Source: a virus. From it: DNA of 27,430 nucleotides. This document shows positions 1,737 to 27,264 of this stretch, one piece after another. Position 1 is the first letter of the stretch. The number at the start of each line of letters is the position of its first letter. The translations under genes were made by a program, and so were the position numbers. Location of the stretch: positions 1 to 27,430 of the IMG/VR virus record IMGVR_UViG_3300048554_000033; one strand, written 5' to 3'. Below the pieces are notes generated by a model. That model was given only the letters and a program-made list of their open reading frames with translations, had not been told where the DNA came from and made no database searches.

Positions 1737-3133
1737 TAGTTTTGTGTTACTGTTGCTGAACAACTTGCACTATTACAATTTTGTTCAAGGTAATAATTTT
1801 GGTCTGTTGAACTATCCTGTGTCAAAGTAACACTAGAACTATTACCACTTAAATTTATTGTTGCATTATGATTACCACTTCCGTCTTGTGTTACATCTAC
1901 ACTATGACTATCAGTTAGTGTGATATCTAAAAAGTGATTACCTGTACCTTTTTGGTCTACGGCAACATTATTAGAACTATCTATGTCTAACCACAATTTT
2001 TTATCTCCTGTTTCTGTCTGGTCTACATCAACATTATTATTACTACCAACTATCTTAACATTCATATAGTGTTCGCCTACATAATTAATTGCTGATTGGT
2101 CTAAGTCTACATTATTTGTTGAACCCAATATATCTAATATTGCTCTTTGGTCTTGATTTTGTGTAACTGCAACATTGTTTGATGAACCTATTATATCTAG
2201 ACCCAAAATATTATCATTACCTATTTGGTCTAAATCTAAAGCATTATTATCACCAGTTATTACAGCTGTTGAAGTTAAATCTGAACCTATAATTAAATTA
2301 TCATCACCATCTTGTAATATATTTAAAGTGTTATTATTTCCTGTTTGTGTAATGTATAACTGATTACCACTTATAGATTTATTTCTAGCTGCATTAAACT
2401 CTGTTGTTTGATTTGAAGTTATACCAGATTGTACTGTTGATGTGTATAATCCTTCTTCTTCCATTATTTTAAGTAAAAGGGCATCCATGTTAGCTGCATA
2501 TGTGTGAGTTGAAAGAAACTGACCATAGCCAAATGTTACATAAACTGAACCACCATTTGAACCATAATCCCATTTGTGTATAATAGAAATATTATTATTA
2601 GAAGATGAGTTAGCGGCTACAGTTGTACCGTTAGTTACATAATACATATATTTGTCTGAACCTGGTAAAGTATTTTCATTATTAGTGCTACTTGCATAAT
2701 CACCTTTTCTTACTGAATAATAACAAGCATTACATCCACCACCCTGTGTAAAACTACCCACACTCATCTTACTTTCAATTAATTGTTCTATGTTACTATT
2801 TCTGTTGGTTGCACCATTACTACCTACTATAAGCAATTCACCGCCACCAGATACATAATTGTCATAAACTGTCTTACAGTTACTACCACAGTTTGAAGAA
2901 CCTGTGATATCAATGACTAAATCTTTGCCTGATACATCAGTAGAACTAACTGTACCACTTGTACTACTAGATACAGTATAACCTAAATCTTCTAATTCAG
3001 ATTTTAAATTTGTGTATTGAGAACTAGTATTATAATCTCCACTATTTTTATAATATATAAAGGCAGTATCAGCCAATACAGAGGTACTAAAAAATAATAG
3101 ACTACTGACCAGACTGAATAATTGTAATCGCAT
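1736..3133 (-). CDS. Secreted protein: N-terminal alpha/beta domain plus C-terminal curlin-type repeats
   Basis: A 465-residue protein with a clear signal peptide (about residues 1-21, ending SVLA before DTAF). Residues 22-230 look like an alpha/beta fold (GKDLVIDITG, GGGELLIVGSNG, GGSVYVTFGYG); I do not recognise the family and see no catalytic motif. Residues about 250-465 carry Asn/Gln/Gly repeats of the curlin kind, such as ITQTGNNNTLNILQDGDDN, and the protein ends in TVTQN. Curlin repeats (QxGxxN) form stacked beta-arches that assemble into amyloid outside the cell. It is probably exported by Sec and then through the CsgG-like channel encoded upstream. The start overlaps the FecR gene by 32 bases but has a strong GGGGGAG ribosome site. 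Its job could be surface fibre subunit, fibre cap or adhesin. The repeats are certain; the function is inferred. Confidence 0.8.
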   Translation of the reverse strand: MRLQLFSLVSSLLFFSTSVLADTAFIYYKNSGDYNTSSQYTNLKSELEDLGYTVSSSTSGTVSSTDVSGKDLVIDITGSSNCGSNCKTVYDNYVSGGGELLIVGSNGATNRNSNIEQLIESKMSVGSFTQGGGCNACYYSVRKGDYASSTNNENTLPGSDKYMYYVTNGTTVAANSSSNNNISIIHKWDYGSNGGSVYVTFGYGQFLSTHTYAANMDALLLKIMEEEGLYTSTVQSGITSNQTTEFNAARNKSISGNQLYITQTGNNNTLNILQDGDDNLIIGSDLTSTAVITGDNNALDLDQIGNDNILGLDIIGSSNNVAVTQNQDQRAILDILGSTNNVDLDQSAINYVGEHYMNVKIVGSNNNVDVDQTETGDKKLWLDIDSSNNVAVDQKGTGNHFLDITLTDSHSVDVTQDGSGNHNATINLSGNSSSVTLTQDSSTDQNYYLEQNCNSASCSATVTQN

Positions 3134-4199
3134 TTTCTACTCCCCCTATTTCGTAATCTATTATTTCATAATCACCTTGTACAACATTTAAAACATAATT
3201 ATATTCTTTATCTAATCTTAATTCAATATAATTTCCAGAGGCGTCTTCTCTACTCCATAACCAATTTGGGTCTTCATCTAATAAAGTGATACCTGTTTCA
3301 GGGTCTTTACCTAATCTTATACCATCTCGACCTTTGTCAAATTCATTTCTCATTGACTTTGCTAATTCAGCATTAATTTGGTCTAATATGTTTACTAAGA
3401 AATTTTGTTCTAAGAAATCTATGTCTAATCCTGTTGCCCAATTTTCAGTTTCTTCTTCTAGATAATCCACTTCCAAATCATCAAATTCTAAAAAATCAAT
3501 ATCTAGTGCGTTGGCAACTTTTATAAAATCCTCTTTACTTTGTTGCTCTTCTATCTCTCTTGGTTTTGATATGATTAATAAGTTACCTATTAAGTTTTCA
3601 TCTATATCTAGAATGACTGGTTTCATAGGATTACTTGCAACTGTTTCTACAACTGTGGCTTGAAATGCCTGATTTAAAATTACTTGACCAGCATCCGATG
3701 TTACATCTATTTCTCCTACATAACAATTACCATTTGTATCACATGAAGGTAATAATATAATTGTAGAACTTCCGACTTCATCTATTGTCATTGTAAAGTC
3801 TGTTCCACGAACACCGATTGTTGCTGTTGGTGTTTTTATCTTTACATTTTGTTTTGAGTTTTTTGCAATTTGACCTGAAGCATACCTAACAGTACCTAAG
3901 GATGCCTTTAATGATAAGGCACCTGTTTTTGAATTTGGGTCATAAACAAATTCATCTATTATTAGTTTAGAATGTTCTGTTACATCTACTCTAGTATCAT
4001 CAATAAACTCAATGGCAGTTTTACCTTTTCCGGTTCTAACGGTGTCGTAAGAAAAAATATCTAAATCTTTTTCAGACTTAAACTCATCTCCTTCTTTTCT
4101 TTCAACGACACCATTACCTTCTTGTAAAATGACATCTCCGATACTTGCACCAAAAGTGTTAGTGCTAAACAACAACATCATAATAAAAAACTTTTTCAT
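3102..4199 (-). CDS. FecR-domain secreted protein in the curli operon
   Basis: A 365-residue protein with a signal peptide (about residues 1-18, ending NTFGA). Residues about 45-140 match a FecR domain: YDTVRTGKGKTAIEF, then a beta-rich stretch with LGTVRYASG and ending KTPTATIGVRGTDF, a hallmark of FecR proteins. In bacteria such domains act in the periplasm as sensors or regulators, often next to CHASE2 or adenylate cyclase genes. The C-terminal half is acidic and unfamiliar, and its last residues (NAITIIQSGQ) look like a single curlin repeat. The start lies one base after the stop of the upstream curlin gene, so translation is probably coupled. It may link secretion of the curlin proteins to the CHASE2 cyclase two genes downstream; that is inference. 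Confidence 0.85.
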   Translation of the reverse strand: MKKFFIMMLLFSTNTFGASIGDVILQEGNGVVERKEGDEFKSEKDLDIFSYDTVRTGKGKTAIEFIDDTRVDVTEHSKLIIDEFVYDPNSKTGALSLKASLGTVRYASGQIAKNSKQNVKIKTPTATIGVRGTDFTMTIDEVGSSTIILLPSCDTNGNCYVGEIDVTSDAGQVILNQAFQATVVETVASNPMKPVILDIDENLIGNLLIISKPREIEEQQSKEDFIKVANALDIDFLEFDDLEVDYLEEETENWATGLDIDFLEQNFLVNILDQINAELAKSMRNEFDKGRDGIRLGKDPETGITLLDEDPNWLWSREDASGNYIELRLDKEYNYVLNVVQGDYEIIDYEIGGVENAITIIQSGQ

Positions 4200-4200
4200 T

Positions 4201-4884
4201 TTAATCTCGTTGTATTATATCTATATCGTGATTATCTCCAGATGTTGTTAGTGTAATCATGTTATCATAGATACCACTTTGAGTTATATCTACATCTGCG
4301 ATAGAACCTGTGTGTGTATGAATGTAAGTATGTCCTGCACTATCACCATTACCATCTATATCAACTAAGAAGTTATTTGTATCTCCATTAACTGATAATG
4401 TTAGTATTGCTGAGTTACCATCTATTGTACCTAAGATTGTGTTACTATCACTACCACTTGCACCAGTAATTCCAACTGTTGCTGAAGTAGCAGATGATGT
4501 TTCCCCAATGTCTATGTCAATATCGTTAGATGAACCTACCCAAACAATAGAAGCTGTTGCTGTACCACAAGAACTATTATTTCCTGCACTATCACAATTA
4601 AAGTCTATATTGTTACTATCACCTGTTACAGAAAATGTGCCTGTATAGGTTGCACCATTGACATCAAAGGTCATAACATTACTATCACCTATTTGTGTAA
4701 TTGCCAAATTTGTTGTTGCACCAATAACACTAGAGGCTGTAGTCGCATTACCTACTGTGTTATTCTGACCATCTTGTGTTACATCTAAATCTAATGTAGC
4801 ACCAGATTGGTTTATATAAATGTCATTTGCATGTACTGATAACGAAATAAAAATCACAGATAATATAGTGATTATTTTTTTCAT
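4201..4884 (-). CDS. Curlin-repeat (CsgA/CsgB-like) secreted subunit
   Basis: A 227-residue protein from the ATG at 4884. I prefer this start to the ATG at 4899 because it overlaps the csgG stop as ATGA and has GGAG nine bases upstream. A signal peptide covers about residues 1-20 (ending SVHA). The mature part is rich in Asn, Asp, Ser, Thr and Gly with periodic repeats such as INQSGATLDLDVTQDGQNN, ITQIGDSN, VTGDSNNIDFN and VNGDTNN, ending DIDIIQRD. This is the QxGxxN pattern of curli subunits with Asp often in place of Gln. E. coli CsgA is about 150 residues, so this is longer and more degenerate. It is the most likely substrate of the CsgG channel encoded just upstream. Whether it forms amyloid cannot be told from sequence. 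Confidence 0.82.
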   Translation of the reverse strand: MKKIITILSVIFISLSVHANDIYINQSGATLDLDVTQDGQNNTVGNATTASSVIGATTNLAITQIGDSNVMTFDVNGATYTGTFSVTGDSNNIDFNCDSAGNNSSCGTATASIVWVGSSNDIDIDIGETSSATSATVGITGASGSDSNTILGTIDGNSAILTLSVNGDTNNFLVDIDGNGDSAGHTYIHTHTGSIADVDITQSGIYDNMITLTTSGDNHDIDIIQRD

Positions 4885-5696
4885 TCTTTTACTCTCCATT
4901 TTTTAAACTTCCAATAGTCTAACTGTTCGCCCTTTTCAACCATTTTTAAAACGCCATATTCTATGGCAGAACGAATAGCATAATCTGTTGGTTCATTAAT
5001 AGCTGCACCTGTTTCTATCTCTAATGCTTTAGTCCTCAAATCAAAGAATCTAAATACATCAGCACCAGTTTGATAACTTGCAATAGTTTTACTTGCTGAT
5101 ATTGTCATCAATACTTCTCCTGTCTGTACTGCTATTACTCTTAAAGCAACAGTTACTTGGTCTGTTCGATATTGTTTGGAAGCTCCAATACCGAATACTC
5201 TTGCACCTTCGCCACCACTTACGGTATTTGAATCGTAACTGACAACGCCCCCCTCTATAATAAGACCTGCAAATATTAGTGGTTTTAATACTGTACCTGC
5301 ATCTTTTTCACCATCATATAATTCTCTTGTAGACCTAACCAATTGTCTTTCTTTGACTAGGTTATTTAATCCTTTTCTTTCTACTACTGTAAACCAATCA
5401 CCACCACTTACCATTTTAAGTGCTTGTATTAAGTACACTTCAGGTCCTTGTGTAACTGCCGTACTTAATTGAGAAAACTTATCACTAGGTTTTCTTTGTC
5501 CTGTTCTATCAGGAAAATCATAAATCGCAATCGTAATCTTATCTTGGTCTAAATCAGGTACACCTTTTAATAAATCCGATGTAGCAGGATTTTGTATAAA
5601 TGGCTTCTGAGACATCTCAACATAATTGCCCATTGTTGTCGAACAACCTGACAGGCACATGCCCATTAAAAATATTAATACATAAGTCCAGCTCAT
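4881..5696 (-). CDS. csgG: CsgG-family curli secretion lipoprotein
   Basis: Outer-membrane secretion channel of the curli (type VIII) pathway. The product has 271 residues, close to E. coli CsgG (277). A lipoprotein signal ends in the lipobox L15-S16-G17-C18. Family landmarks are present in order: IAIYDFPDRTGQ, WFTVVERKGLNNLVKERQ, FAGLIIEGGVVSYDSNT, TDQVTVALRVIAVQTGEVL, and a C-terminal segment with ETGAAINEPTDYAIRSAIE. Nine copies of such a protein form a ring with a narrow pore that passes unfolded curlin subunits. It lies between csgF and a curlin-repeat gene, the expected neighbourhood. AGGA precedes the start. No csgE, csgC or csgD is visible. CsgG in a T4-like phage is unusual, and the intact motifs suggest it is functional. 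Confidence 0.93.
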   Translation of the reverse strand: MSWTYVLIFLMGMCLSGCSTTMGNYVEMSQKPFIQNPATSDLLKGVPDLDQDKITIAIYDFPDRTGQRKPSDKFSQLSTAVTQGPEVYLIQALKMVSGGDWFTVVERKGLNNLVKERQLVRSTRELYDGEKDAGTVLKPLIFAGLIIEGGVVSYDSNTVSGGEGARVFGIGASKQYRTDQVTVALRVIAVQTGEVLMTISASKTIASYQTGADVFRFFDLRTKALEIETGAAINEPTDYAIRSAIEYGVLKMVEKGEQLDYWKFKKWRVKE

Positions 5697-5704
5697 AGTT
5701 TATC

Positions 5705-6187
5705 CTAAAAAATAAAATCTCCAACTGGTACAGTCAATGATGATACTGTTCCTGTTGGGTCAGTTATTGTCAATGTTATTATATCTGTTGAGGTATCTTT
5801 TACCCAATAAATTTGAGAACCTTCTACTTCTGCCGTTCCACTTGTTGCACAATTTTCTGTACAACTCGTTCCAAACATATTATCAACTAATTGTTTTGAT
5901 AAGTTAGCATAGATACGACTTTCTACATTGGCAATAAATTTATTGATTGTTTTGTTTTTTTCATCTCTTTCTGCTTGAGATAAAGCAGACTTCTCATCTT
6001 TAATTCTGTCATTTTCTCTAGTGTATTGTAGCTGCTCTATTGATAAGGCATGCTGGGAATAACCCTCTTTACTAAAAGCAGGGTTACCAAACTTGTGGGT
6101 AAGTTCACTTGCTGTGCTAGTATGAATCAAACAAGTGCATAATAGAAAGGATACTAACACTATTTTGTTTAAATCTAGTGTTTTCAT
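5705..6187 (-). CDS. csgF: CsgF-like curli assembly factor
   Basis: A 160-residue secreted protein with a signal peptide (about residues 1-26, ending TSTA before SEL). Three blocks match the CsgF layout: LTHKFGNPAFS resembles the mature CsgF N-terminus that plugs into the CsgG channel; FIANVESRIYANLSKQL resembles the central helix; and the end, TLTITDPTGTVSSLTVPVG, resembles the final beta-hairpin. In E. coli CsgF caps CsgG and couples secretion to fibre nucleation. Here it is the first gene of the cluster, eight bases ahead of csgG, and a T4 late promoter box ends six bases before its ATG. Because the match is by motif order rather than high identity, I am surer of the family than of detailed function. 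Confidence 0.8.
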   Translation of the reverse strand: MKTLDLNKIVLVSFLLCTCLIHTSTASELTHKFGNPAFSKEGYSQHALSIEQLQYTRENDRIKDEKSALSQAERDEKNKTINKFIANVESRIYANLSKQLVDNMFGTSCTENCATSGTAEVEGSQIYWVKDTSTDIITLTITDPTGTVSSLTVPVGDFIF

Positions 6188-15007: not shown

Positions 15008-17155
15008 CTTATATTTATCCTTTTGTATATCTTTATTTATACTGTTTTCTGGTGTTCTTAATTTAGAATCAACAGGTTTTTCATCTGGTGTCTCTCCAGG
15101 TGTCATTTCTTTAGTATGATTGGCATAATCTGCCCCTATTTCATATGATTCTTTACTGACTTCACCATACATTTGTTTATATTTTTTAGTATGTTTAGAT
15201 GTTTTAGTCTTTGCTGTGTCATCGCCAGGCGCTGGTTTGTAACCAGGTTTTGTAGTATCTTGTTTCTTAAAAAAGTCTGCCCTCTTTTGTTTTACATCTT
15301 TACTTAATGTCTTATAATATTTCTTTGGCTGAGTACCTGGTTCTTTTCTAACATCAGGATCCTGTGCCAATTTTTTCTTTTCTTTCATGTCTCCCTCCGA
15401 TACAGCCTCAAAGCCATAATCTATGTCTAAATTAAACTCTCTAATTGCAACCTCTTTATCTGCTGAATCAGGTACACAATCATATATCCATGCCTTGTGT
15501 AAGTTTTCTTCTGAATCTTCAAGTACAATATAGTTCGTACTTCTTCTGACAATCTTGCCATGTATATCTTCTTTAACATAATGTACTTTGTCATTTATAT
15601 TAAAGATAACTTCTCTAATATATAAATCTCTCAATTGTTTCTTTTCAAATGCTTCTAAACTTGCCATAGGTTTAAAGTTATAACCCATGTGATTATTTGT
15701 ATTAGCAGCTAATGACTTTTTAAATGATACTTTCATACCTTTTGCAACATCTCTAAATAATGACTGTACATCTCTAAATCCTGAAGGTAAACCTTTTTCA
15801 AATGATTTTATATCACCTTGTGAAACAGCGTTTCTCATTTTACTTGCACTCATACCTGTAGCGCCTTCGGCGTCTGGGTCTCTTTCACCTGCACTTGTAA
15901 CTTTAATATCTAAGAAATCATAAAAACCGTGTCTCGATTTTACATTATTATATTTGTTTAGTATTGTTTTAAATTCTTGTACTCTATCACTACCTACAAC
16001 CATGTTAATATTTTTATAACCTTTGTTGTACAATTCTGTTGCAACATCTAGTATCATATTTGAGGCAGGTATTCTAAACATACTTCTATGTTGTGGAAAC
16101 ATCCTTCTCATATATTGAATCTTTTGTGTAACTGTTAAAGGATTTTTTTTAACATCTTGTGATTTACTTAAATAAACATATTTAAAATCACCAGGTGTCT
16201 GTGCAACTTTTCTTATAAGTTTTTCATGACCTATTGTTGGAGGATTAAATCTACCAAATGTAAACACAGCAGTTCCTTTAGAATGTTCAGGTGCTTCTTT
16301 TAGAGAATCTATCTCTTGGTCTGTAACTTTATCATCTTCTAATATATCTTTTAGTTTTTTATAAAACTTCATGTAGTGATATTTTTCTAACATCTTATAG
16401 ATTACATTTTTAGGTAGTTTGTTTTGTTTACCAAACTCTCTAATTTCATCAGGTGTCATTTCTCTACTAAAGATATCTCTCCTATCGTTTGTAAGTTTAT
16501 CACCTATCTCTTTTAATCTTCTAATTGATTCTTCTATTTCTTCTAGTTTTTCATTGACTAATGCTTGTAGATTTAAGACATCATTATTAGATAATTGTTT
16601 TAGTTCTGTATAATCTATAATATCTCTTTTTAGTTCACCTTTAATAATATCAAGTTCTTGTACTTGTTTTCTAAAATCTGCCTCATACTTTTCAGGCTCA
16701 AATGTATCTTCATCTGGTTTTTTAATCCACTTGTTATCTTTTATAGAGAAGATACCATCTGCCTTTTTGTTATTGTTTTCTAAAACTTTAGGGTCTGTAA
16801 TCACATAGTAGTTTACAGGATGTTCTGTGCCTGGCACATTTTTACCATTGATATCTCTTAATAGTTTAGAGTATTGTTCTCTCCTTTCTTCTTGTTCATC
16901 TTCAGGTACATCAAATAATACATTGATATCCAAGTCAGCGTCATTACGATATCTCTTTGTAAGTATAGAACCTATTAATGATGTTGATACAACAGGTGCA
17001 AGTTTTTCAAACTCTTTAATCTGTTTGTCAATCATATCTAAAACTTTTTGTTTTAGTTTAGGATTTTCAGTATCAGCGTCATCAAATACACCAGGTGCAT
17101 AATCTTTTCTAGGTATATCAATTACTGATTCTATTAAGTCTTTATAAAATTTCAT
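14666..17155 (-). CDS. Polyprotein: Pol-beta-type nucleotidyltransferase plus HxGH adenylyltransferase plus small modules
   Basis: An 829-residue protein starting MKFYKDLIE, a targeting-like leader with LxE at residues 7-9. Domain 1 (about 30-160) has the Pol-beta-type nucleotidyltransferase signature: G62-S63, then D74-L-D76 (NDADLDINVLF). A coiled linker leads to SLKE at 284-287, a possible protease site. Domain 2 (about 294-460) is a cytidylyltransferase/NMNAT-type fold: FGRFNPPTIGH (T307-H310) and S436ASKMR441 in place of ISSTxxR. A beta domain (about 535-600) is followed by small charged modules (DDTAKTKTSKHTKKYK near 680) that recur in marine phages. Residues from 717 on may also be made separately from an internal start. 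Likely actions are nucleotide transfer or NAD-type metabolism, possibly after injection; substrates are unknown. Confidence 0.82.
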   Translation of the reverse strand: MKFYKDLIESVIDIPRKDYAPGVFDDADTENPKLKQKVLDMIDKQIKEFEKLAPVVSTSLIGSILTKRYRNDADLDINVLFDVPEDEQEERREQYSKLLRDINGKNVPGTEHPVNYYVITDPKVLENNNKKADGIFSIKDNKWIKKPDEDTFEPEKYEADFRKQVQELDIIKGELKRDIIDYTELKQLSNNDVLNLQALVNEKLEEIEESIRRLKEIGDKLTNDRRDIFSREMTPDEIREFGKQNKLPKNVIYKMLEKYHYMKFYKKLKDILEDDKVTDQEIDSLKEAPEHSKGTAVFTFGRFNPPTIGHEKLIRKVAQTPGDFKYVYLSKSQDVKKNPLTVTQKIQYMRRMFPQHRSMFRIPASNMILDVATELYNKGYKNINMVVGSDRVQEFKTILNKYNNVKSRHGFYDFLDIKVTSAGERDPDAEGATGMSASKMRNAVSQGDIKSFEKGLPSGFRDVQSLFRDVAKGMKVSFKKSLAANTNNHMGYNFKPMASLEAFEKKQLRDLYIREVIFNINDKVHYVKEDIHGKIVRRSTNYIVLEDSEENLHKAWIYDCVPDSADKEVAIREFNLDIDYGFEAVSEGDMKEKKKLAQDPDVRKEPGTQPKKYYKTLSKDVKQKRADFFKKQDTTKPGYKPAPGDDTAKTKTSKHTKKYKQMYGEVSKESYEIGADYANHTKEMTPGETPDEKPVDSKLRTPENSINKDIQKDKYKMKTFKEYAEDDIYAHLDEELEITEAEYQGKKVKLNDPIRGGSKKFYVYVKNDKGNVVKVSFGDTTGLSIKRDDPERRKSFRARHKCDTAKDKTSARYWSCRMWTAKTKVSDLD
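15034..15041 (-). promoter_or_regulatory. T4-type late promoter inside a coding region
   Basis: Minus strand TATAAATA, exact consensus, inside the 14666-17155 gene and 27 bases ahead of an in-frame ATG. A chance match is possible in such AT-rich DNA, but the position before a leader-bearing start supports it. Confidence 0.55.
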
Positions 17156-17832
17156 CTTCTTTTAATCTTTAATTGTCTATCTATCCATTGTTTTGCAAGA
17201 TAATTATGTGGTTGATTCATAGTTCTTCTAACTATACTTGCACATTTATTTAGTGTTAATGTTACTAATTCCTTTTCACTTTGACTGTTGTCTATAATAT
17301 GAAAGTTTGCTGGTTGAAATAGTTTTTGAAGTCTTCCCATATTTCCTTGAACAGTATTCCAATTTGTTTTAACTATATTTTGTGGTACACTTCTATCTCT
17401 TTTTTCATTTCTTTCTAATGCGACATCTAAACTTGTATTAACAAATAACATGGTAGTTTGATATCCTAAAATTTTTAAAAATCTTTGTTGTCTAGATATT
17501 GTAGCAAAGTCTCTAGCAGTACCATCTATTATTAAACCAAGTCTACCTGCAATGTATAAATCCATTCTTGACGCTGTATTTATTTTTGCCTTCTGTCTGA
17601 TTTCATCTCTTTTTTCTTTTTCTTTCTCAGGCATTTTCATAGACAATCCTTCATCTTTTAAATACTTTTCAAATATACTATCTGAGTTTACAAGTTTTAA
17701 ACCTAAACCTGCAAATGCAGCCTTTGTTACAAATGTTTTACCAGAACCTGGTCCACCTGCAAGAAAGTATGCCTTAAATATACCAGGGTCATAAACTCCT
17801 TCTGTTATTAAAAATGTTTTATAGTCTTTCAT
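17152..17832 (-). CDS. P-loop kinase (zeta-toxin/polynucleotide-kinase-like) with targeting-like leader
   Basis: A 226-residue protein. Its leader MKDYKTFLITE has IxE at residues 9-11 immediately before the enzyme domain. A Walker A motif follows (FLAGGPGSGKTF, K32), then VNSDSIFEKYL (Asp as in zeta-type kinases), LIIDGTARDF, TTMLFVNTSLDVALERN and the arginine-rich RNEKRDRSVP. This order matches zeta-toxin/AAA-33-type small-molecule kinases, which phosphorylate nucleotides, nucleic acid ends or sugars. It sits between adenylate kinase and a nucleotidyltransferase polyprotein, with overlaps of 14 and 4 bases. Substrate unknown. Confidence 0.82.
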   Translation of the reverse strand: MKDYKTFLITEGVYDPGIFKAYFLAGGPGSGKTFVTKAAFAGLGLKLVNSDSIFEKYLKDEGLSMKMPEKEKEKRDEIRQKAKINTASRMDLYIAGRLGLIIDGTARDFATISRQQRFLKILGYQTTMLFVNTSLDVALERNEKRDRSVPQNIVKTNWNTVQGNMGRLQKLFQPANFHIIDNSQSEKELVTLTLNKCASIVRRTMNQPHNYLAKQWIDRQLKIKRR

Positions 17833-19149: not shown

Positions 19150-20361
19150 TTATCCCCACTCCTTATCCATCGTGAAGTTTGCACGACTAAATTCTAATCT
19201 ATCTACAAGTTTAACTGCACCGGCGCTTCTATCTACTGCGACAAAACCTTCAGGTGATGTTACTCTATATCCGTTTGGTGTTTTTAGGAAGTGTCCTATA
19301 CTTTGTATTTGTGATAGTTTACTTACTAAGAAATTCTTTGCATTTGCCAAACTGACATGACTTGCAATTGCCATGTATAATGCACTTTGATTTTTGTCTA
19401 TAAATTTTAAATTATCTTTTTTCGCCTGTATAAATTTTTGTTTACCTGCTGTTGTCTTTCTAGCAGATATTTCTGCATTAATAAAACTTTCGTAATACTC
19501 TCTAAATTGTCCTTGTAATGTTTTAACTTTACCCATACCACCTGTACTGTTTCTAATTACAGAATTGAAAAATGTTTTTAATCTATATCCTACTGATGTT
19601 GGGTCTCTACTGTCCATTTGATTTAACATAGGACCTGCTTTTGATAATGAACCTTTTGCCATTCTAATTAATGAATCAAATCTTGATAATTCTGTTGATG
19701 TAAATTTAGATGAACCGGAAGTATCTCGGTATCCTGCTGAGGCAAGATAAACATTTCTGCCACCCCCACCCGTAACTGTTCCGAATCCTGCTCGTAAATC
19801 TTGCATTGTTTTGCCTGAATATTTTGTATGAAAGACTATACCTAATTTTGCACTTGCAATTTTTCTACCCACATTTGAGTTTACAGGCATTGCATATGTA
19901 ATTGTGTTAGGTGTAAATGTAATCATAGATTCGCCATCTATATCTGTTTTCTTTTTATCACCCGATGTAAATAATAAATCGCCTTGATAAACACCATTAG
20001 TAACAATTCTACGGAGATAAGTTAAACATGCTGATAGTTTTTCTGCAACAACACCTGAATGATTTCTTCTGATGTCTGCACTTGTATAATTAATCTTAGG
20101 TACTTTATTAAATACTGACTTAGTACCTACAAAGAATCTGCCGTTCTCTGGATTTATACCACAGATAATCGCTGGGGCACCATCCCACTTAACAGTCATA
20201 TTGACTTTTTTACTTGACCTACCAGCTAGCATGTTGCGAATTGCAACCAAGAAGTTTACAGCATTTTGACCACCCTTTGAACCTTCATCTATAATCTGGT
20301 CCTCTAGATGTTCTAAGTGCTTATTCTTGGCCTTAGTCTGATATCCTTTAAAACTAAACAT
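19150..20361 (-). CDS. Nucleotidyltransferase/ligase-fold protein with KWDG motif
   Basis: A 403-residue protein. MFSFKGYQ at the start and IIDE at residues 23-26 resemble the targeting leaders and cleavage sites of neighbouring genes. The core has VKWDGAPAIICG, where K58-W-D-G61 matches motif I (KxDG) of the covalent nucleotidyltransferases that include DNA and RNA ligases. Later blocks (GVYQGDLLF, GIVFHTKYSG) resemble motifs III and IV. I recall related proteins (DUF6267-type) in T4-like marine phage structural regions. Ligase or adenylation activity is inferred from motif order only; no known accessory domain is seen. A late promoter lies 65 bases upstream and GGGAG precedes the ATG. Confidence 0.7.
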   Translation of the reverse strand: MFSFKGYQTKAKNKHLEHLEDQIIDEGSKGGQNAVNFLVAIRNMLAGRSSKKVNMTVKWDGAPAIICGINPENGRFFVGTKSVFNKVPKINYTSADIRRNHSGVVAEKLSACLTYLRRIVTNGVYQGDLLFTSGDKKKTDIDGESMITFTPNTITYAMPVNSNVGRKIASAKLGIVFHTKYSGKTMQDLRAGFGTVTGGGGRNVYLASAGYRDTSGSSKFTSTELSRFDSLIRMAKGSLSKAGPMLNQMDSRDPTSVGYRLKTFFNSVIRNSTGGMGKVKTLQGQFREYYESFINAEISARKTTAGKQKFIQAKKDNLKFIDKNQSALYMAIASHVSLANAKNFLVSKLSQIQSIGHFLKTPNGYRVTSPEGFVAVDRSAGAVKLVDRLEFSRANFTMDKEWG

Positions 20362-20466: not shown

Positions 20467-21756
20467 TTAGTTATCCCATTTGTCTTTTTGGGTCTCCATT
20501 TCTTCAACAATAAGAGTTATATCTTTGTATATACTTTCATCGGTAGCATTATCAAATATGTTTGATAATATCTCTCTATTATTAGTATCATACTTTTTCC
20601 AATCTTTTTGATATGATTCTGATGGATGATGAATTACAACATGGTAAGTATCAATCTTTTTGCCAGATTCGATTAGTTCTTTAATCTTTACTAGTCCATG
20701 TGTTATCAAATCATTTTTACCACTAGAAAATTGTTTAGCGTAAATATTAGGTTCTAAATTAAGAGTATCAATTTTAGTCTGTAATTGTTTCTTATAACCT
20801 GCCCCTTGCCAATTAATCCAGTTCTTATCTTCACCTGTCATATCTGAAACTAATTGTTTAACTTTATTAATTTCTTTTTGAGTTAAATGATTTTCTTTAA
20901 AAACAAATTGTACAGATTCACTATTGTAAGATAAACCTTTTTCTATCTCTTTATAAACGCCTTGTGCAATTGTTGTTAAATTAGTTTGTTTTTTTGGTGT
21001 TTTTTCTCTAGGGTTTAGATATCTACCAAGCCACTCAATTTCTTCATCATTCCAATCTTTATGAATGTGTTCTGGTATAATTAATGTTCTAATAGATGTT
21101 GCATTAGACATTTTAAATGCATTGTTAGAATGATTTCCGTTTACACCTAAATTCACAAGTTTACCATCTACTTCCCTATTTTCTAAAATAGTACATAGCA
21201 ATTCTTCTGTTGCATATTTACCAAAAGATTCATTTATTTTATCTTTCAATTTTTTCTCATGAACATCATCTGTGGTTTCATCTCTTACTTGTAACCATCT
21301 TGTATTATTCATGTAGTTTTTATCTTTTAGTTCTTGTGAACATCCTGTGAAATTACATGTTTTAGTAATTGTATCAGCAATATCTTTTATTAATGGATGT
21401 CTTACAATTTCAATAAATTGATTAAACCCATTTGATTTATTGTAATACTTATCATTATCTTTAGCATTTACTTTTGTTAGTTCGTTATATTCATATTGTT
21501 GGCAAAATTTATAACCTGCCCACATTATAACTTTATAAGTCCACTTAATATTATCATCATGCAAGTCTTGTAAAAATTGTTTATCTTCTGATGAAGTGAT
21601 GTAATCGGTACCAGCCTCAGATGATTTTTTTATACCTAGATATTTTTTGCCATTTTCACGATTTGTCCATTCATAAACGAATGCCTCAGCATTGTCCTGA
21701 TTTGCCGGAATCTCTGTCATGATTCTGTCATTTGTTGATTCTTGCCATTTACTCAT
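20467..21756 (-). CDS. GIY-YIG-like endonuclease, probably homing type
   Basis: A 429-residue protein. Residues about 25-110 fit the degenerate GIY-YIG layout seen in phage homing endonucleases: FVYEWTNRENGKKYLGIKKS, then DYITSSEDKQF, WTYKVIMW, and QYEYNELTKVNAKDN with a conserved-type Glu and the following YYNKSNG. The rest (about 120-429) is charged and mainly helical with a short Cys pair (CNFTGC) and unknown DNA-binding content. Unlike its neighbours it has a perfect sigma70-type promoter and a CAGGAGA ribosome site, so it is probably expressed early. It stands alone between a terminator-like hairpin and a late promoter. The assignment rests on motif pattern; the C-terminal region is unrecognised. 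Confidence 0.6.
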   Translation of the reverse strand: MSKWQESTNDRIMTEIPANQDNAEAFVYEWTNRENGKKYLGIKKSSEAGTDYITSSEDKQFLQDLHDDNIKWTYKVIMWAGYKFCQQYEYNELTKVNAKDNDKYYNKSNGFNQFIEIVRHPLIKDIADTITKTCNFTGCSQELKDKNYMNNTRWLQVRDETTDDVHEKKLKDKINESFGKYATEELLCTILENREVDGKLVNLGVNGNHSNNAFKMSNATSIRTLIIPEHIHKDWNDEEIEWLGRYLNPREKTPKKQTNLTTIAQGVYKEIEKGLSYNSESVQFVFKENHLTQKEINKVKQLVSDMTGEDKNWINWQGAGYKKQLQTKIDTLNLEPNIYAKQFSSGKNDLITHGLVKIKELIESGKKIDTYHVVIHHPSESYQKDWKKYDTNNREILSNIFDNATDESIYKDITLIVEEMETQKDKWDN

Positions 21757-21973: not shown

Positions 21974-23203
21974 TTATTTTTTTGCAGAACGAAGACCTAA
22001 GTCTACATTTCCAGCGTCTTGTAATACATCTCCAACAAAAGGTGTTCCTTCATAACCTACTTCTTTGTTGATTCTGTTTGCAATTGCTTTTTCTTCATCA
22101 GTCGCAAAGTGTTCATCCCATGCAGCCAATCTTTTTCTCATATACCAATGCCAAATTGGTGGTACTAATGCGATAAAGAATACCACAAAGTAGCCCCAGC
22201 CTGTATTTGGACATCCGACATTTTCGAGTTCCCAGAAATGAGTTTCTCCTCTGTCATGATGGTCAGCCTGTCTGCCGATTTCAATAAAGAACCAAGCAGT
22301 GAAAGCTGTTGAGTTATCCCAATTGTGTCTGTAATCAATTGGTTGGTCTTTTACACGGATTAGACCATAATGCTCTAGATAGTTAAGTGCTTCTAGCTCG
22401 AAGTTTGAGATTCCCCAAATTGTTGCTAGTACTGCCATACCTATCCAACCACCAGCTGCAAAGAATAATGCTACTGTTGGTACTGCCATTAGATATCCTC
22501 TTATCCAACGGTTTTGCCAAGAAATGAATGATACACCCATTCTTGATAGTCTTTCTTTTTCCATGTTGAAAAGAAATTTTGATTGACCTAGGTATGAAAG
22601 TGGATAATGACCATAGATTGTTCTACCACGAGGTGCAGTAGCTGGGTCATCTTCACTTGCAAGTTCTAGATGATGGTTGTACACATGAGCGTAACAGAAA
22701 TGTGCTGAACCAGATAGTGCCATCATTAATCTAGAGATTACGAATCCAAATCCTTTTGTGTGAGATAGTTCGTGACCATAGATGATTCCGATACCAATAA
22801 AGATACCAGAAGATAATGTAGCGCCGATTAGGTTAACTGCTGTTATACCTTCGTGCATTACTAATATTCCAGGAATGAGTTCCATGATTACTGCACCTTC
22901 AGCTCCACCTAGTGCCATGAATGTATAAAGTCTCCATGCCATTACTAGTTGAAACAAAACGAATACAGGTAACATGAAATACATTGTTAGGTTTTGAAAA
23001 GTTGGCCAACCTAAAGATTCGCCGTTTTCATCATAACCTACACCTGTTGTTTCAAATTTTGTAGCGATATCTACAAGCAGACCTACGAATAGCAATGCTA
23101 CTCCTAACCAAGCCATGATACCACCCAAAAGAACGCCAGCACCAGCTACGATTATAAGAATCGGCGCTAATAGATAGCGTGCATTAAGTAAGATTTGTCC
23201 CAT
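21974..23203 (-). CDS. alkB: Alkane 1-monooxygenase-like membrane di-iron hydroxylase (AlkB/XylM family)
   Basis: A 409-residue integral membrane enzyme. The family hydroxylates terminal carbons of alkanes or alkyl side chains using O2 and electrons from rubredoxin. I choose the ATG at 23203 because AGGAGG lies nine bases upstream; an in-frame ATG at 23257 would overlap the promoter region. About six membrane helices are visible. Histidine boxes: H144-E-L-S-H148, H173-V-Y-N-H177-H178 and D314-H315-H316. The AlkB hallmark NYLEHYG is at 274-280. Box 1 reads HELSHT where many AlkBs have HELxHK, and box 3 lacks the usual LQRHS, so it is a divergent member. It has its own sigma70 promoter and downstream hairpin. 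Sampled lines look higher in GC (roughly 32-40%) than flanking genes, suggesting acquisition. Rubredoxin and reductase are not in the window and would have to come from the host. Confidence 0.9.
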   Translation of the reverse strand: MGQILLNARYLLAPILIIVAGAGVLLGGIMAWLGVALLFVGLLVDIATKFETTGVGYDENGESLGWPTFQNLTMYFMLPVFVLFQLVMAWRLYTFMALGGAEGAVIMELIPGILVMHEGITAVNLIGATLSSGIFIGIGIIYGHELSHTKGFGFVISRLMMALSGSAHFCYAHVYNHHLELASEDDPATAPRGRTIYGHYPLSYLGQSKFLFNMEKERLSRMGVSFISWQNRWIRGYLMAVPTVALFFAAGGWIGMAVLATIWGISNFELEALNYLEHYGLIRVKDQPIDYRHNWDNSTAFTAWFFIEIGRQADHHDRGETHFWELENVGCPNTGWGYFVVFFIALVPPIWHWYMRKRLAAWDEHFATDEEKAIANRINKEVGYEGTPFVGDVLQDAGNVDLGLRSAKK

Positions 23204-23238
23204 TTGATTTTTCCTCCTATCAAATGTTATATACTTGG

Positions 23239-23267
23239 AGTATATCGTAAGGAACAACTAAAGTCAA
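23239..23267 (-). promoter_or_regulatory. Sigma70-type promoter for alkB
   Basis: Minus strand TTGACT (23262-23267), 17-base spacer, TATACT (23239-23244). Predicted start near 23232 leaves a leader of about 29 bases containing AGGAGG. The remaining gap to 23392 shows no gene. Confidence 0.8.
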
Positions 23268-23392: not shown

Positions 23393-24571
23393 TTATTTTG
23401 CAATTACAAACTGTCCTGATAGAGGTGTTCTTGATGTAATATATTCATACATCAATCTAATAAACTTATCCTTTTTTGTTCCTGATTTGAAAAACTTTTT
23501 TAAGTCTGGCATTATTTCATTAATAATATAAATGGCACTTATAGCGCCTCTTTCAAAATCAAATCTTTTTTTATCTTTTCTTAGATACTCAATTTTTTCT
23601 AATGCCTTAAAATACTTTTCCTCACCTGCTTTATATTTTCTTAAAGTAGAGTTGGCTAACCCTTTATCAATAAATGCTAGTAATTCACAGAATACTTTTA
23701 TAGAACCTATTGAACCACCTCTTGCCTCTGCCTTACTAAAAATTGCCTCTGCAACAAATCTTTTTGCTGAAGGGTCATGTCTTAATTTTATTTCACCACC
23801 AGATTCTAACATTATTCTCATATCTCTAGTTTCTGCTTTTTGGCCATACTTTACTTTTTTATATTTTTTCCAGTCTGTTACATTTTTTACTTTTACTTTA
23901 TTGATAACTTTTATTTCTTCTTTTCTATCAAAGTTTACTAACTGTAATATGGGTTCTGTTTTCGTTACCTTTTTTAATGACAATGGTAATAAATCTCCAC
24001 TATCAATTAAATTAGATACTAAAGAATTTAAACTAGGAAAGTCATAATAATTTTCATTTTGTGCTTTGATTAAATTCTGTCTTATAGTTTGTTTTGCTTT
24101 ATTACTTCCTAAATAGATATCTGCCGGTGACCATTTATTTACATTACCAAATTTTGCTTGTGATGTATATTTTTGTTTGTTGGCATATTTAAATAGGTTT
24201 TCTATATTACCCATTATTTCATCATCGCCTCTAAAATAAAATAATTTTTGAAAACCTGCAGCCTCTATCTTTAAATCTTTATCAATATCTCCTATATCAT
24301 TAACTAATTTTTTTGCAATTTTTACTGAAGATATATACCAAGAATTATCCTCTGTTAAAAATGTTTCTATCATATCACCAGATACACCAGGTGTAACTAT
24401 TCTTTGTAGTGATTTATTAATTTGATTTTGACCTACTTTTGCTCTGAAATCAGCATACTCTGGATAAAGTTTTTCATCAAATATTTGATTTGATTTTGTC
24501 TTACCCAATAAATCTGCTATTGCACATAGTAATGCTTGAGCGCTTTCTGCTAATGCTGTTTTGTCTGCCAT
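23393..24571 (-). CDS. Conserved viral protein of unknown function, late-promoted
   Basis: A 392-residue soluble protein. NVNKWSPADIYLGS (about residues 143-156) is a signature I recall from large marine virus proteins of unknown role. It is followed by FPSLNSLVSNLIDSGDLLPLSLKK and a basic central part (WKKYKKVKYGQK, GGEIKLRHDPSAKRF). No catalytic motif or membrane segment is evident. The start is set by a late promoter ending six bases upstream of the ATG, inside the stop region of helicase 41. Thus it is timed differently from the replication genes before it. No clear terminator follows. Confidence 0.78.
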   Translation of the reverse strand: MADKTALAESAQALLCAIADLLGKTKSNQIFDEKLYPEYADFRAKVGQNQINKSLQRIVTPGVSGDMIETFLTEDNSWYISSVKIAKKLVNDIGDIDKDLKIEAAGFQKLFYFRGDDEIMGNIENLFKYANKQKYTSQAKFGNVNKWSPADIYLGSNKAKQTIRQNLIKAQNENYYDFPSLNSLVSNLIDSGDLLPLSLKKVTKTEPILQLVNFDRKEEIKVINKVKVKNVTDWKKYKKVKYGQKAETRDMRIMLESGGEIKLRHDPSAKRFVAEAIFSKAEARGGSIGSIKVFCELLAFIDKGLANSTLRKYKAGEEKYFKALEKIEYLRKDKKRFDFERGAISAIYIINEIMPDLKKFFKSGTKKDKFIRLMYEYITSRTPLSGQFVIAK

Positions 24572-24577
24572 ACATAC

Positions 24578-24585
24578 TATTTATA
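24578..24585 (-). promoter_or_regulatory. T4-type late promoter overlapping the helicase stop codon
   Basis: Minus strand TATAAATA, exact, containing the TAA of the helicase gene. The expected start site is at or one base before the ATG at 24571, giving an almost leaderless message. Confidence 0.78.
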
Positions 24586-25957
24586 ACTGAAAATCAGAGA
24601 ATTTGTCGTATGCTACATCTGGTGTTATTTGTTCTTCTTCTTCAGTCTGATTACTATCAACAATGTTCTGAGCAGAAGCTTCTACATCAAATAGTCTCAT
24701 TTTGGAACGGTCTACACCTATGATAAAAGAACGATTCATACTTGGGTCGCCGAATCTGTTCTTTAATTGTTTGACTTTTAATTGATTCAATTGTTCTAAC
24801 TCATCATTAGAGATTAGTGCAAACATAAAGTCTGCTGTTGCCGGCAAACCAAATGATTCTGCCGTATCTTCTAAACCGATATCTGTTGAAGTAAAACCAC
24901 TTCTTGTTGTTTGAGTAGCAGAGAAGATTGGTAAATCAAATTCAACTGCAAGACCACGAAGCTCTTCTGCAATTGCCTTGATGTAGAAATATGATGAGAT
25001 ATTTCCACCTTTGAACCTGCTACTCGCACATATATTGAGGTAATCTATAAAGACTACATCAGGTTTAAAAGTTTTCTTTAACGATAATTCATTTAGTAAT
25101 GCTCTGAAATGACCACTATGAGCAGAAGCAGTAGGATATTCTTTAATAATTAATTGACCTAATGTTTTATTTTGTAACTTCTTAACTTTGTTTTCATACA
25201 TGTCTTTTGGCATAACATGTAAATCATCTATAGTTACATCAAATAAATTAGCGTCTACTCTTTCTGCAATTCTTTCTTCTGCCATTTCAAGAGTAATGTA
25301 TAAAACATTTTTACCTTGTATCAACCAGTTTGAGGCTGCATGACACATGAATAATGATTTACCAACGCCGGTGCCTGCAAGTGCAATATTTAAAGTTTTA
25401 CTTGGGACACCGCCTTTGGTGATACGATTAAAATAGTTTAAATCAAACTTAAATCTTTTTTCTTTTTTATGATAAAAATCAAATCTAGATTGAGCATCCT
25501 CTATATAATCATGCCCAACATGATTGTCAAAAGATACTGCAAGTGCCTCTGATAAAATTTGAGGTATCGCCTCTGGATTTTGTTTCTTATCTTTACCATC
25601 TAGAATCTGAATACCTGATAAGACTGCATTATGTACTGCACGGTCTTTACAAAACTTTTCTGTTGTATCTAATAACCATTGTAATTCTACTTCTTCATTA
25701 TTTAAACCGTTTACAATAGTTTTAATTTCAGTTAATTCATCTTCTTTTAAATCTTTTCTTTTATTTAATTCTACAAGTATGGTTTCTTTTGTAGGTAAAT
25801 TTTTATATTTGTTTACAAATTCATTTACTTCACCAAATAATGTTGATTCACTATGATTAGAAAAAAATTCAGTTTTAATAAAAGGTAAAGCTTTTCTTGT
25901 AAAGTCTTCATTGTAAAATAAATTTCTTAATATTATTCTTTCTATTCTATCAGTCAT
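24581..25957 (-). CDS. 41: Replicative DNA helicase, gp41/DnaB family
   Basis: A 458-residue hexameric helicase that unwinds the fork and hosts the primase in T4-type replication. The N-terminal helical domain (about 1-160) is followed by a RecA-like motor: Walker A G195TGVGKS201 (H1), YITLEMAEERIAERVDANL (H1a), DVVFIDYLNI (Walker B, H2), and a later block with FSATQTTRSGF (H3) and DFMFALISND. A basic Arg segment near the end (LKNRFGDPSMNR) fits H4. Length matches T4 gp41 (475). Its neighbourhood beside uvsX is as in T4. The start overlaps the small upstream gene by eight bases. Confidence 0.93.
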   Translation of the reverse strand: MTDRIERIILRNLFYNEDFTRKALPFIKTEFFSNHSESTLFGEVNEFVNKYKNLPTKETILVELNKRKDLKEDELTEIKTIVNGLNNEEVELQWLLDTTEKFCKDRAVHNAVLSGIQILDGKDKKQNPEAIPQILSEALAVSFDNHVGHDYIEDAQSRFDFYHKKEKRFKFDLNYFNRITKGGVPSKTLNIALAGTGVGKSLFMCHAASNWLIQGKNVLYITLEMAEERIAERVDANLFDVTIDDLHVMPKDMYENKVKKLQNKTLGQLIIKEYPTASAHSGHFRALLNELSLKKTFKPDVVFIDYLNICASSRFKGGNISSYFYIKAIAEELRGLAVEFDLPIFSATQTTRSGFTSTDIGLEDTAESFGLPATADFMFALISNDELEQLNQLKVKQLKNRFGDPSMNRSFIIGVDRSKMRLFDVEASAQNIVDSNQTEEEEQITPDVAYDKFSDFQL

Positions 25958-26285
25958 TTATATCCTCAAATTTTAAATCTAATTTACCTGTTGCTAATTG
26001 TTCTTCTACTAAATCTATTAATATATCACCTATATGGTCGATAAACTCTTGTTCATCAATGTCTATATCTTTAGGATTTTTTAGAATATTATAATCGAAT
26101 ATTACTGAAAGTTTTTCTGAATCTTCTACTTCTTTGAATCCAACATTGCCATACTTGTAGATTATTTCTGCATACTTACCTTCAGTAAGTTTTATGCAAG
26201 TATAATCATCATCAGGTCTTTGTGCAAAGACATAAGGTTTAGTCTTCTTCTGTTCCGTAGGTGAATTTTCTTTTTGTGTACTCAT
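25950..26285 (-). CDS. Small acidic protein between uvsX and helicase
   Basis: A 111-residue protein from the ATG at 26285; a TTG one codon upstream is possible. It overlaps uvsX by 47 bases, unusually long here, and the helicase gene by eight. The N-terminus is Lys/Gln-rich, followed by [37 protein letters not shown] and an acidic helical end. T4 has gene 40 at this position, but I see no similarity. It is probably a replication or recombination accessory protein by context only. Confidence 0.7.
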
Positions 26286-27264
26286 CAATCTTCTCTAATA
26301 CTTCTTTTTTGAAATATTTTTCAGGTTCATTATTTATTGTTTTTGCATATTGTTTGTTGCCATCTGGTAATTCATATCTTGTTGATACTTTTTTAAACAA
26401 GCCACATTCTTCTGCTAATTCTAAAAGACCATAGTATTTGTCAAGACCCCTTTTGTATGTAAGTCTAACATCTACTTGTTCATTTTCTTTTGTAATTCTA
26501 GACTTGTAATTTTTACAACGAATTATATTACCGACAACTTCTGTTCCATCTTTTTCTTTTCTTTTACCAAGATATACAATACTTGAAGCTGCATATTTAA
26601 GACCAGAACCACCACCCATTTCTTTTTGTGGGAACATAGAACCAATCACATCATATGTATGATTAGTCATAATCATTGGTACATTTGCCTGACCTAGTTT
26701 TAAAGTTAAAACTCTAAATGCTGATTTGACAATTTGACTTCTAGTCATGTCTCTTGTTTCTTTACCTTCAGCAGTATCTTCCATTTCTTTTGTAGTAGAT
26801 AACATGCCTAAGGAATCAAGTACAAACATGATAGGTTTTCTTTTGTCTGATTCTTGTTCTAGATACTTGTCAATAATTTTTATTGATTGTGTTCTAAACT
26901 CTTGTACTGTTGCAACTGGTACAACAACAACTCTGTTTACATCTATGCCTCTTTGTTCTAGCATATCTTTAGATACTGCATTTTCTGATTCAAAATAAAT
27001 CACACCAGCATTCTTATCTTTATCTAGAAAACTTTTACATACACCCAATGCAAAGAAAGTTTTACCTGTAGCGGCCTCACCTGCAATTGCTGTTATACGA
27101 TTACCTGGTAGCCCACCGTAAATACTGCCTGACAATAAGGCGTTGAAAGCATATGAACCAGTGTCAATAAAGCTATCAACATCACCACCTGTAACACCGT
27201 CGGATGCTAAAGTAGCATATTCATTGCCTGTTTCTTTAATTATATCTTTTAAAAAATCACTCAT
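26239..27264 (-). CDS. uvsX: UvsX, RecA-like recombinase
   Basis: A 341-residue strand-exchange ATPase for phage recombination-dependent replication and repair. The core shows [20 protein letters not shown] with Walker A G62EAATGKT69, [11 protein letters not shown], the Walker B strand [12 protein letters not shown], and [31 protein letters not shown] (loop 2 region, quoted in part: [10 protein letters not shown]), then YLGKRK. T4 UvsX is 391 residues; this is shorter, as in marine relatives. A perfect sigma70 promoter and GAGG ribosome site precede it. Confidence 0.95.

Follow-up and report, generated by a model that had tools for sequence, protein, structure and literature searches.

A membrane di-iron monooxygenase gene shared by T4-like phages and bacterial mtoX operons is a candidate for the first step of dimethylsulfide oxidation

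What does an AlkB-like membrane oxygenase do in the genome of a T4-like phage? The question arises from a gene in IMG/VR record IMGVR_UViG_3300048554_000033, of which the first 27,430 nucleotides (the window, meaning the whole stretch of DNA that was analysed) are considered here. An earlier note on this DNA had read the gene as a phage-borne alkane hydroxylase of the AlkB/XylM type that could oxidise alkanes or membrane-derived alkyl chains in the infected cell. Our analysis retains the phage auxiliary gene and argues for a different substrate. We think it somewhat better supported than not that the gene was derived from the mtoX (methanethiol oxidase) operon of sulfur-oxidising marine Gammaproteobacteria and that its product is a membrane di-iron monooxygenase demethylating dimethylsulfide (DMS), a reading in which we infer the substrate, product, electron donor and benefit to the phage.

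The open reading frame is intact, with an ATG at 23203 and a stop at 21974, and its product of 409 amino acids matches Pfam FA_desaturase (PF00487, E 2e-28); no NCBIfam or PHROGs model matches it at E 0.001. L073 and L129, whose matched stretches contain stops at the ends given, were left out of a first alignment for folding. Sequence relatives of the protein in the PDB are two AlkB structures only. A search with the AlphaFold model (pLDDT 75, pTM 0.81) likewise returned AlkB structures as the sole significant matches (8f6t, E 6e-9; 8sbb, E 5e-7), so that the predicted fold is that of AlkB, and desaturases gave a significant structural match neither in the PDB nor among the viral proteins in BFVD.

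The irons of FtAlkB are held by nine histidines and one glutamate, with His311 as an Fe2 ligand (PMC10113152), and the iron-binding histidines of AlkB have been described as invariant (PMC10110569). The phage protein keeps eight of these histidines and the glutamate, Glu277, which lies within NYLEHYG (residues 274-280) and is conserved as in AlkB. However, the AlkB motif RHSDHH is replaced by RQADHH, which puts Gln312 at the position of His311, and the protein thus departs from the nine-histidine set of AlkB. The earlier view that all histidine boxes and NYLEHYG are intact therefore holds for NYLEHYG and the eight ligand histidines but not for this position. Glutamine is found here in all 79 viral and all 74 bacterial members that have the residue (153/153), as opposed to histidine in all six AlkB- and XylM-type references. 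Because every member tested has glutamine in place of an Fe2-ligand histidine, we regard the family as a distinct subfamily, and Gln312 is a trait of that subfamily common to bacteria and not decay in the phage. Loss of the histidine could alter the chemistry altogether, but hydroxylation itself by the phage protein remains likely.

Phylogenetic analysis (155 rows, SH-aLRT supports) places the window gene and the type A and B phage copies in one 66-row clade (SH-aLRT 100) in which the sole host genes are of the mtoX-operon type. Thirteen bacterial genes of this one operon type, and no other host group, interleave with the window gene and most phage copies, and the nearest host copy is 98% identical. 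Next out from this clade is a paralog located beside an ammonium transporter, and a second phage branch is more distant at 62-66% identity. Genes passed between host and phage several times, as well-supported branches force at least four changes for type A phages and likewise for the mtoX-operon host group. The AlkB and XylM references fall across a supported branch (SH-aLRT 99), with outgroup rooting that is coarse because only six references were used. The suggested phylogeny against AlkB and XylM sets the protein outside both branches; the concern that it might sit in a clade of non-hydroxylating homologues is justified in part, in that the clade is other than that of true alkane hydroxylases. 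Additionally, members of a second family branch (L107-L125) are oriented divergently to an upstream gene for a MerR-like regulator, past which there is a FabA-like gene, and the function of this branch may differ from that of the mtoX-linked branch.

Table 1. Features at and around the phage monooxygenase gene, in window coordinates.
Feature	Position	Strand	Evidence
Membrane di-iron monooxygenase, AlkB fold, RQADHH variant of third histidine box	21974..23203	-	Pfam, PDB, alignment, predicted model
RNA hairpin CAUUUGAU-AGGAGGAAAA-AUCAAAUG, Shine-Dalgarno in loop, AUG in 3' arm	23201..23226	-	Covariation among phages
Sigma70-type promoter TTGACT-17-TATACT	23239..23267	-	Sequence
Downstream stem-loop, 11 bp stem, 8 nt loop	21928..21957	-	Folds well
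Phage gene	19150..20361	-	Pfam and PHROGs searches
Flanking phage ORF weakly matching SegE (GIY-YIG), possible homing endonuclease	20467..21756	-	Pfam; differs between phages
Flanking phage ORF, phrog_1462, function not assigned, variable between phages	23393..24571	-	PHROGs
DnaB-like replicative helicase, anchor gene on one side of cargo site	24581..25957	-	phrog_19, E 9e-126
UvsX-like recombinase	26239..27264	-	phrog_97, E 3e-99

The gene lies on the minus strand, the orientation of all annotated-looking genes in the window, and Pfam and PHROGs searches mark the window as T4-like phage by its helicase, UvsX, DUF6267 and other PHROG families (Table 1). PHROGs matches of the neighbours confirm the earlier description of flanking phage genes on the same strand. 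The proposed expression signals were also located, namely the promoter and an AGGAGG ribosome site (23218-23213), and counterparts of the promoter with 10-12 of 12 consensus positions occur upstream of the gene in other phages that have it at the helicase/DUF6267 locus. The downstream hairpin does exist and folds well, and nearly every phage copy is followed by sequence of comparable folding energy, but the hairpin lacks a U-tract and a terminator scan made no call; it is possibly a transcript 3' end or a stability element. The reported elevation in GC is likewise real, with a gene value of 0.397 (GC3 0.27) against 0.28-0.35 (0.15-0.21) in five neighbouring genes. Different phages have different cargo ORFs beside the gene, which makes this site in the window a variable cargo slot, and these variable ORFs together with the SegE-like neighbour suggest a homing-endonuclease cargo site. 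The SegE-like ORF has a perfect 12/12 promoter of its own (TTGACA-17-TATAAT, 21821-21793). Elsewhere in the window there is a curli-type secretion set (CsgG-like transporter, FecR-domain protein and curlin-like repeat proteins, 1736-6187), as well as an adenylate-kinase-like phage gene (17819-18418) adjoining a second, P-loop kinase-like ORF (17152-17832).

The ribosome site of the phage copies is enclosed in an RNA hairpin. The stem covaries across phages: paired cells make up 95.7% of its alignment, whereas shuffled alignments reach 79.5% and a slid stem no more than 57%, and the covariation score is 0.42 versus 0.12. By a stem test that counts G-T pairs and was devised post hoc, after the motif had been seen, a stem of at least 5 is present in 49 of 50 type A/B copies versus 35 of 644 other phage ORFs. 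The same loose test is passed by 20 of 74 bacterial copies drawn from all branches, and in the listed copies from host operons the ribosome site is simply CTGGAGGTAAAG or CTGGGAGGT and the hairpin was not seen. The hairpin suggests that translation of the phage copy is regulated.

Surveying viral contigs for this locus, as had been suggested, reveals that the gene is both widespread and recurrent. Relatives are encoded in 198 viral stretches of IMG/VR, and an independent 44-kb contig is identical across the locus. The helicase/DUF6267 site holds the gene in 17 contigs of the set, many with anchor genes just 70-95% identical to those of the window. A second site, flanked by the genes for major head protein gp23 and tail tube protein gp19, is occupied in about 49 other contigs, and in a third phage type, of another lineage, the gene is near DUF6267. 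Each of the phage groups has a median dN/dS within 0.08-0.13. Relative to host copies, the window copy has a dN of 0.04-0.09 and a dS of at least 1.5, too high for a fragment recently taken from a host. Searches with MtoX and the reductase, made as for the hydroxylase, recovered no viral relatives, which speaks against host contamination, and none of six operon partners is present in 80 viral loci; phages take the hydroxylase gene alone from the operon. A Fer2 (2Fe-2S) ferredoxin was encoded in one of 13 phage records checked (L003, contig positions 21865-22107), these records, like most viral ones, being fragments; as the ferredoxin is confined to that record, phages generally appear to be without their own electron donor. 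Phage records of GenBank contained only two weak matches, both from an Acinetobacter 'phage' record with host-type genes. That record (L168, CAKLQH020000011.1) encodes ppiD, acyl-CoA dehydrogenases and alkB1 and looks like a mislabelled bacterial chromosome. Occurrence among phage genes in independent viral contigs and at the same position in diverged phages, purifying selection (dN/dS about 0.1) and a host-derived homologue give strong support to the original proposal that phages carry it as an auxiliary metabolic gene and that it has expression signals of its own.

The host orthologs indicate which pathway this gene is drawn from. Two loci (L161 and L162) begin with the hydroxylase gene, followed in order by those for a GST-like protein, 2Fe-2S/FAD reductase (BenC/MmoC type), a 90-aa membrane protein, FadL/TodX-type outer-membrane porin, mtoX, a SCO1/MauG fusion and a thioredoxin-like (TlpA-like) protein. 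The mtoX product matches NF052453 with 716 bits (cut-off 650). The GST-like name reflects weak NCBIfam matches to GST-fold proteins, and the porin is named from Pfam PF03349 on the Methylophaga homolog, with which the L083 copy, itself without a Pfam match, was clustered by BLAST. On one side of the operon are formylmethanofuran dehydrogenase subunits and an H4MPT formyltransferase; on the other are SCO1 and an NAD-linked formate dehydrogenase. The host assemblies are gammaproteobacterial and about 1 Mb in size, dsrA is present in 7 of 8 host genomes with the operon, and searches of these genomes for methanol dehydrogenase gave sub-threshold matches only. This neighbourhood is not that of AlkB. 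For example, a Rhodococcus AlkB has rubredoxins alongside, a XylM relative has alcohol and aldehyde dehydrogenases as neighbours, and a 36%-identical plasmid relative adjoins genes for a GMC oxidoreductase, an acyl-CoA ligase and an aldehyde dehydrogenase, whereas the host operon lacks rubredoxin and combines a 2Fe-2S/FAD reductase with mtoX and C1 genes.

Linkage to methanethiol oxidase, as would be expected of a DMS monooxygenase, is evident both within the operon and from co-occurrence. In an evenly drawn sample of 369 gammaproteobacterial genomes, mtoX is present in 11 of 13 with the hydroxylase versus 22 of 356 without it (Fisher p = 4e-11, a value inflated by shared ancestry even though the branches are diverse), and one of the two exceptions (G037) contains an mtoX fragment. 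Genomes chosen from other family branches have mtoX in 21 of 25 cases. Some members do occur away from mtoX, such as the ammonium-transporter paralog and the branch beside the FabA-like/MerR-like pair. Within Methylophaga the hydroxylase is found in 2 of 24 genomes, M. thiooxydans and M. sulfidovorans, and mtoX is found in the same two; the family gene is absent from the rest of these 24 genomes. These are the two species in which DMS-metabolism genes have been identified (PMC6548844; PMC9563715). M. aminisulfidivorans, on the other hand, has been reported to use DMS but is without mtoX (PMC6548844), which counts against the DMS reading.

Methylophaga is a well-studied marine DMS degrader in which the first-step enzyme has not been identified (PMC6548844). 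Krober and Schafer found no dmoA homolog in six Methylophaga genomes, noted that the first DMS enzyme is missing in M. thiooxydans and considered a monooxygenase possible; a methyltransferase had been proposed for this step by Boden et al. 2010, as cited in their paper (PMC6548844). Among the transcripts that their study found to be strongly raised on DMS relative to methanol is that of MDMS009_226, annotated as a 'fatty acid desaturase', for which lipid repair was suggested (PMC6548844). M. thiooxydans has only two PF00487 genes, and its ortholog of the phage gene shares scaffold ...268 with mtoX, at a distance of about 8 kb; the mto cluster there has tags 140, 211, 261, 274 and 284. As tag 226 falls within this block of tags it is most likely on the same scaffold, and MDMS009_226 is therefore most likely the ortholog, an identification made from scaffold and tag block and not read from a table.

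We propose that the enzyme would hydroxylate a methyl group of DMS (CH3-S-CH3 + O2 + NADH -> CH3-S-CH2OH), the product of which would break down to methanethiol and formaldehyde. The likely source of electrons is the XylA-like 2Fe-2S/FAD reductase of the host, which phages do not carry. Methanethiol would then be split by host MtoX to formaldehyde and sulfide, and energy would be gained through the H4MPT pathway for formaldehyde, formate dehydrogenase and reverse dissimilatory sulfite reductase. The phage may thereby keep a first, perhaps labile, step going during infection, as with cyanophage psbA. The carriage of damage-prone or limiting subunits by phages (psbA, pmoC) provides a precedent. 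Direct support exists for the phage location, the AlkB fold (from a predicted model), purifying selection, origin in the mtoX-operon clade and mtoX linkage; the choice of DMS as substrate is argued from gene company, and a FadL/TodX-like porin is odd for so small and volatile a compound.

Alternatively, the substrate could be another small methylated or volatile compound, such as dimethyldisulfide, a methyl halide, another thioether or a short hydrocarbon, from which methanethiol or formaldehyde would be released. C1 genes adjoin family members in two lineages (L161 and L133-type), L133-type loci include 4HFCP synthase and dihydropteroate-synthase-like genes, and the presence of several paralogs per genome suggests several substrates. 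However, mtoX linkage singles out methanethiol as a product and the probable M. thiooxydans ortholog is induced on DMS, which leaves this alternative unlikely. Slightly less probable still is an acyl-chain hydroxylase or desaturase that repairs membranes under peroxide stress from methanethiol oxidation and that phages would carry to alter the membrane. This would agree with the Pfam match, with Krober and Schafer's reading of MDMS009_226 (PMC6548844) and with the family branch that adjoins a FabA-like gene, but the fold search yields AlkB and no desaturases, the succession of reductase, porin and mtoX is a catabolic layout, and 22 of 24 Methylophaga, likewise membrane-bearing, lack the gene. 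That the enzyme is a true alkane hydroxylase, through which the infected cell would gain carbon from alkanes or alkyl chains, we consider very unlikely. In its favor are the AlkB fold and sequence relatives, Glu277 and the FadL/TodX-like porin. Against it, as against the lipid version of the original proposal, the family branches apart from AlkB and XylM and uniformly has glutamine for a ligand histidine described as invariant in AlkB; furthermore, host orthologs are strongly tied to mtoX and to formaldehyde and formate oxidation genes, and the alcohol and aldehyde dehydrogenases, acyl-CoA ligase and rubredoxin found by the XylM and AlkB relatives examined are missing from the host operon. Finally, mis-assembly of host DNA into viral contigs, a chimera that the raised GC and the 96-98% protein identity to some bacterial genes might suggest, is rejected with near certainty given many independent contigs (including the identical 44-kb one) at two conserved loci in diverged phages, operon partners in no viral locus, no viral MtoX or reductase, the high dS to host copies and a phage-type hairpin at the ribosome site, which the listed sequences from host operons did not show.

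No natural source supplies more sulfur to the marine atmosphere than DMS, most of which microbes consume before it escapes. The present gene is a candidate for the first step that is common to Methylophaga, small-genome sulfur-oxidising gammaproteobacteria and widespread phages and, if the reading is right, it brings both a new enzyme to the sulfur cycle and a point of viral control over that cycle. For DMS consumption a 2026 review lists only DmoA, DdhA, DsoB and Tmm (PMC13360808). On the broader view, T4-like phages throughout the ocean would encode the enzyme still missing from the start of bacterial DMS oxidation, with a Gln-substituted iron site, and viruses would thereby directly tune a marine sink of this climate gas; this view seems to us evenly poised. 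No report of this gene was found among papers on phage alkB or DMS auxiliary genes in the literature searched, the scope of which excluded preprints and most subscription journals.

Comparison with known systems defines how this family differs. With AlkB (FtAlkB, 8f6t, 8sbb) it shares the fold (TM about 0.65-0.69), eight of nine ligand histidines and the glutamate beside the NYLEHYG histidine, but identity is only 23-30%, glutamine replaces His311, and its linkage is to a 2Fe-2S/FAD reductase and mtoX instead of rubredoxin. XylM of TOL plasmid pWW0 similarly has a paired 2Fe-2S/FAD reductase and an outer-membrane transport protein in the same cluster; however, it is 28% identical, retains the histidine, has glutamine for glutamate in NYFQHYG and is clustered with alcohol and aldehyde dehydrogenases. 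DmoA shares the proposed reaction of DMS to methanethiol and formaldehyde, feeding methanethiol oxidase, but is a soluble flavin enzyme of another family. Lipid desaturases are known from cyanophages. Phage-borne fatty-acid desaturases share the broad superfamily PF00487, from which the present protein is set apart by having no significant structural match to desaturases. The T4-like phages of Baikal methylotrophs that carry methanol dehydrogenase, and a phage-borne acyl-CoA desaturase, have been described (PMC7678222). Like phage pmoC, amoC, psbA and methanol dehydrogenase, the gene would place one key host energy-pathway function on a phage; those systems involve other enzymes and pathways, whereas here a proposed methyl-sulfide monooxygenase is carried with its catalytic subunit complete.
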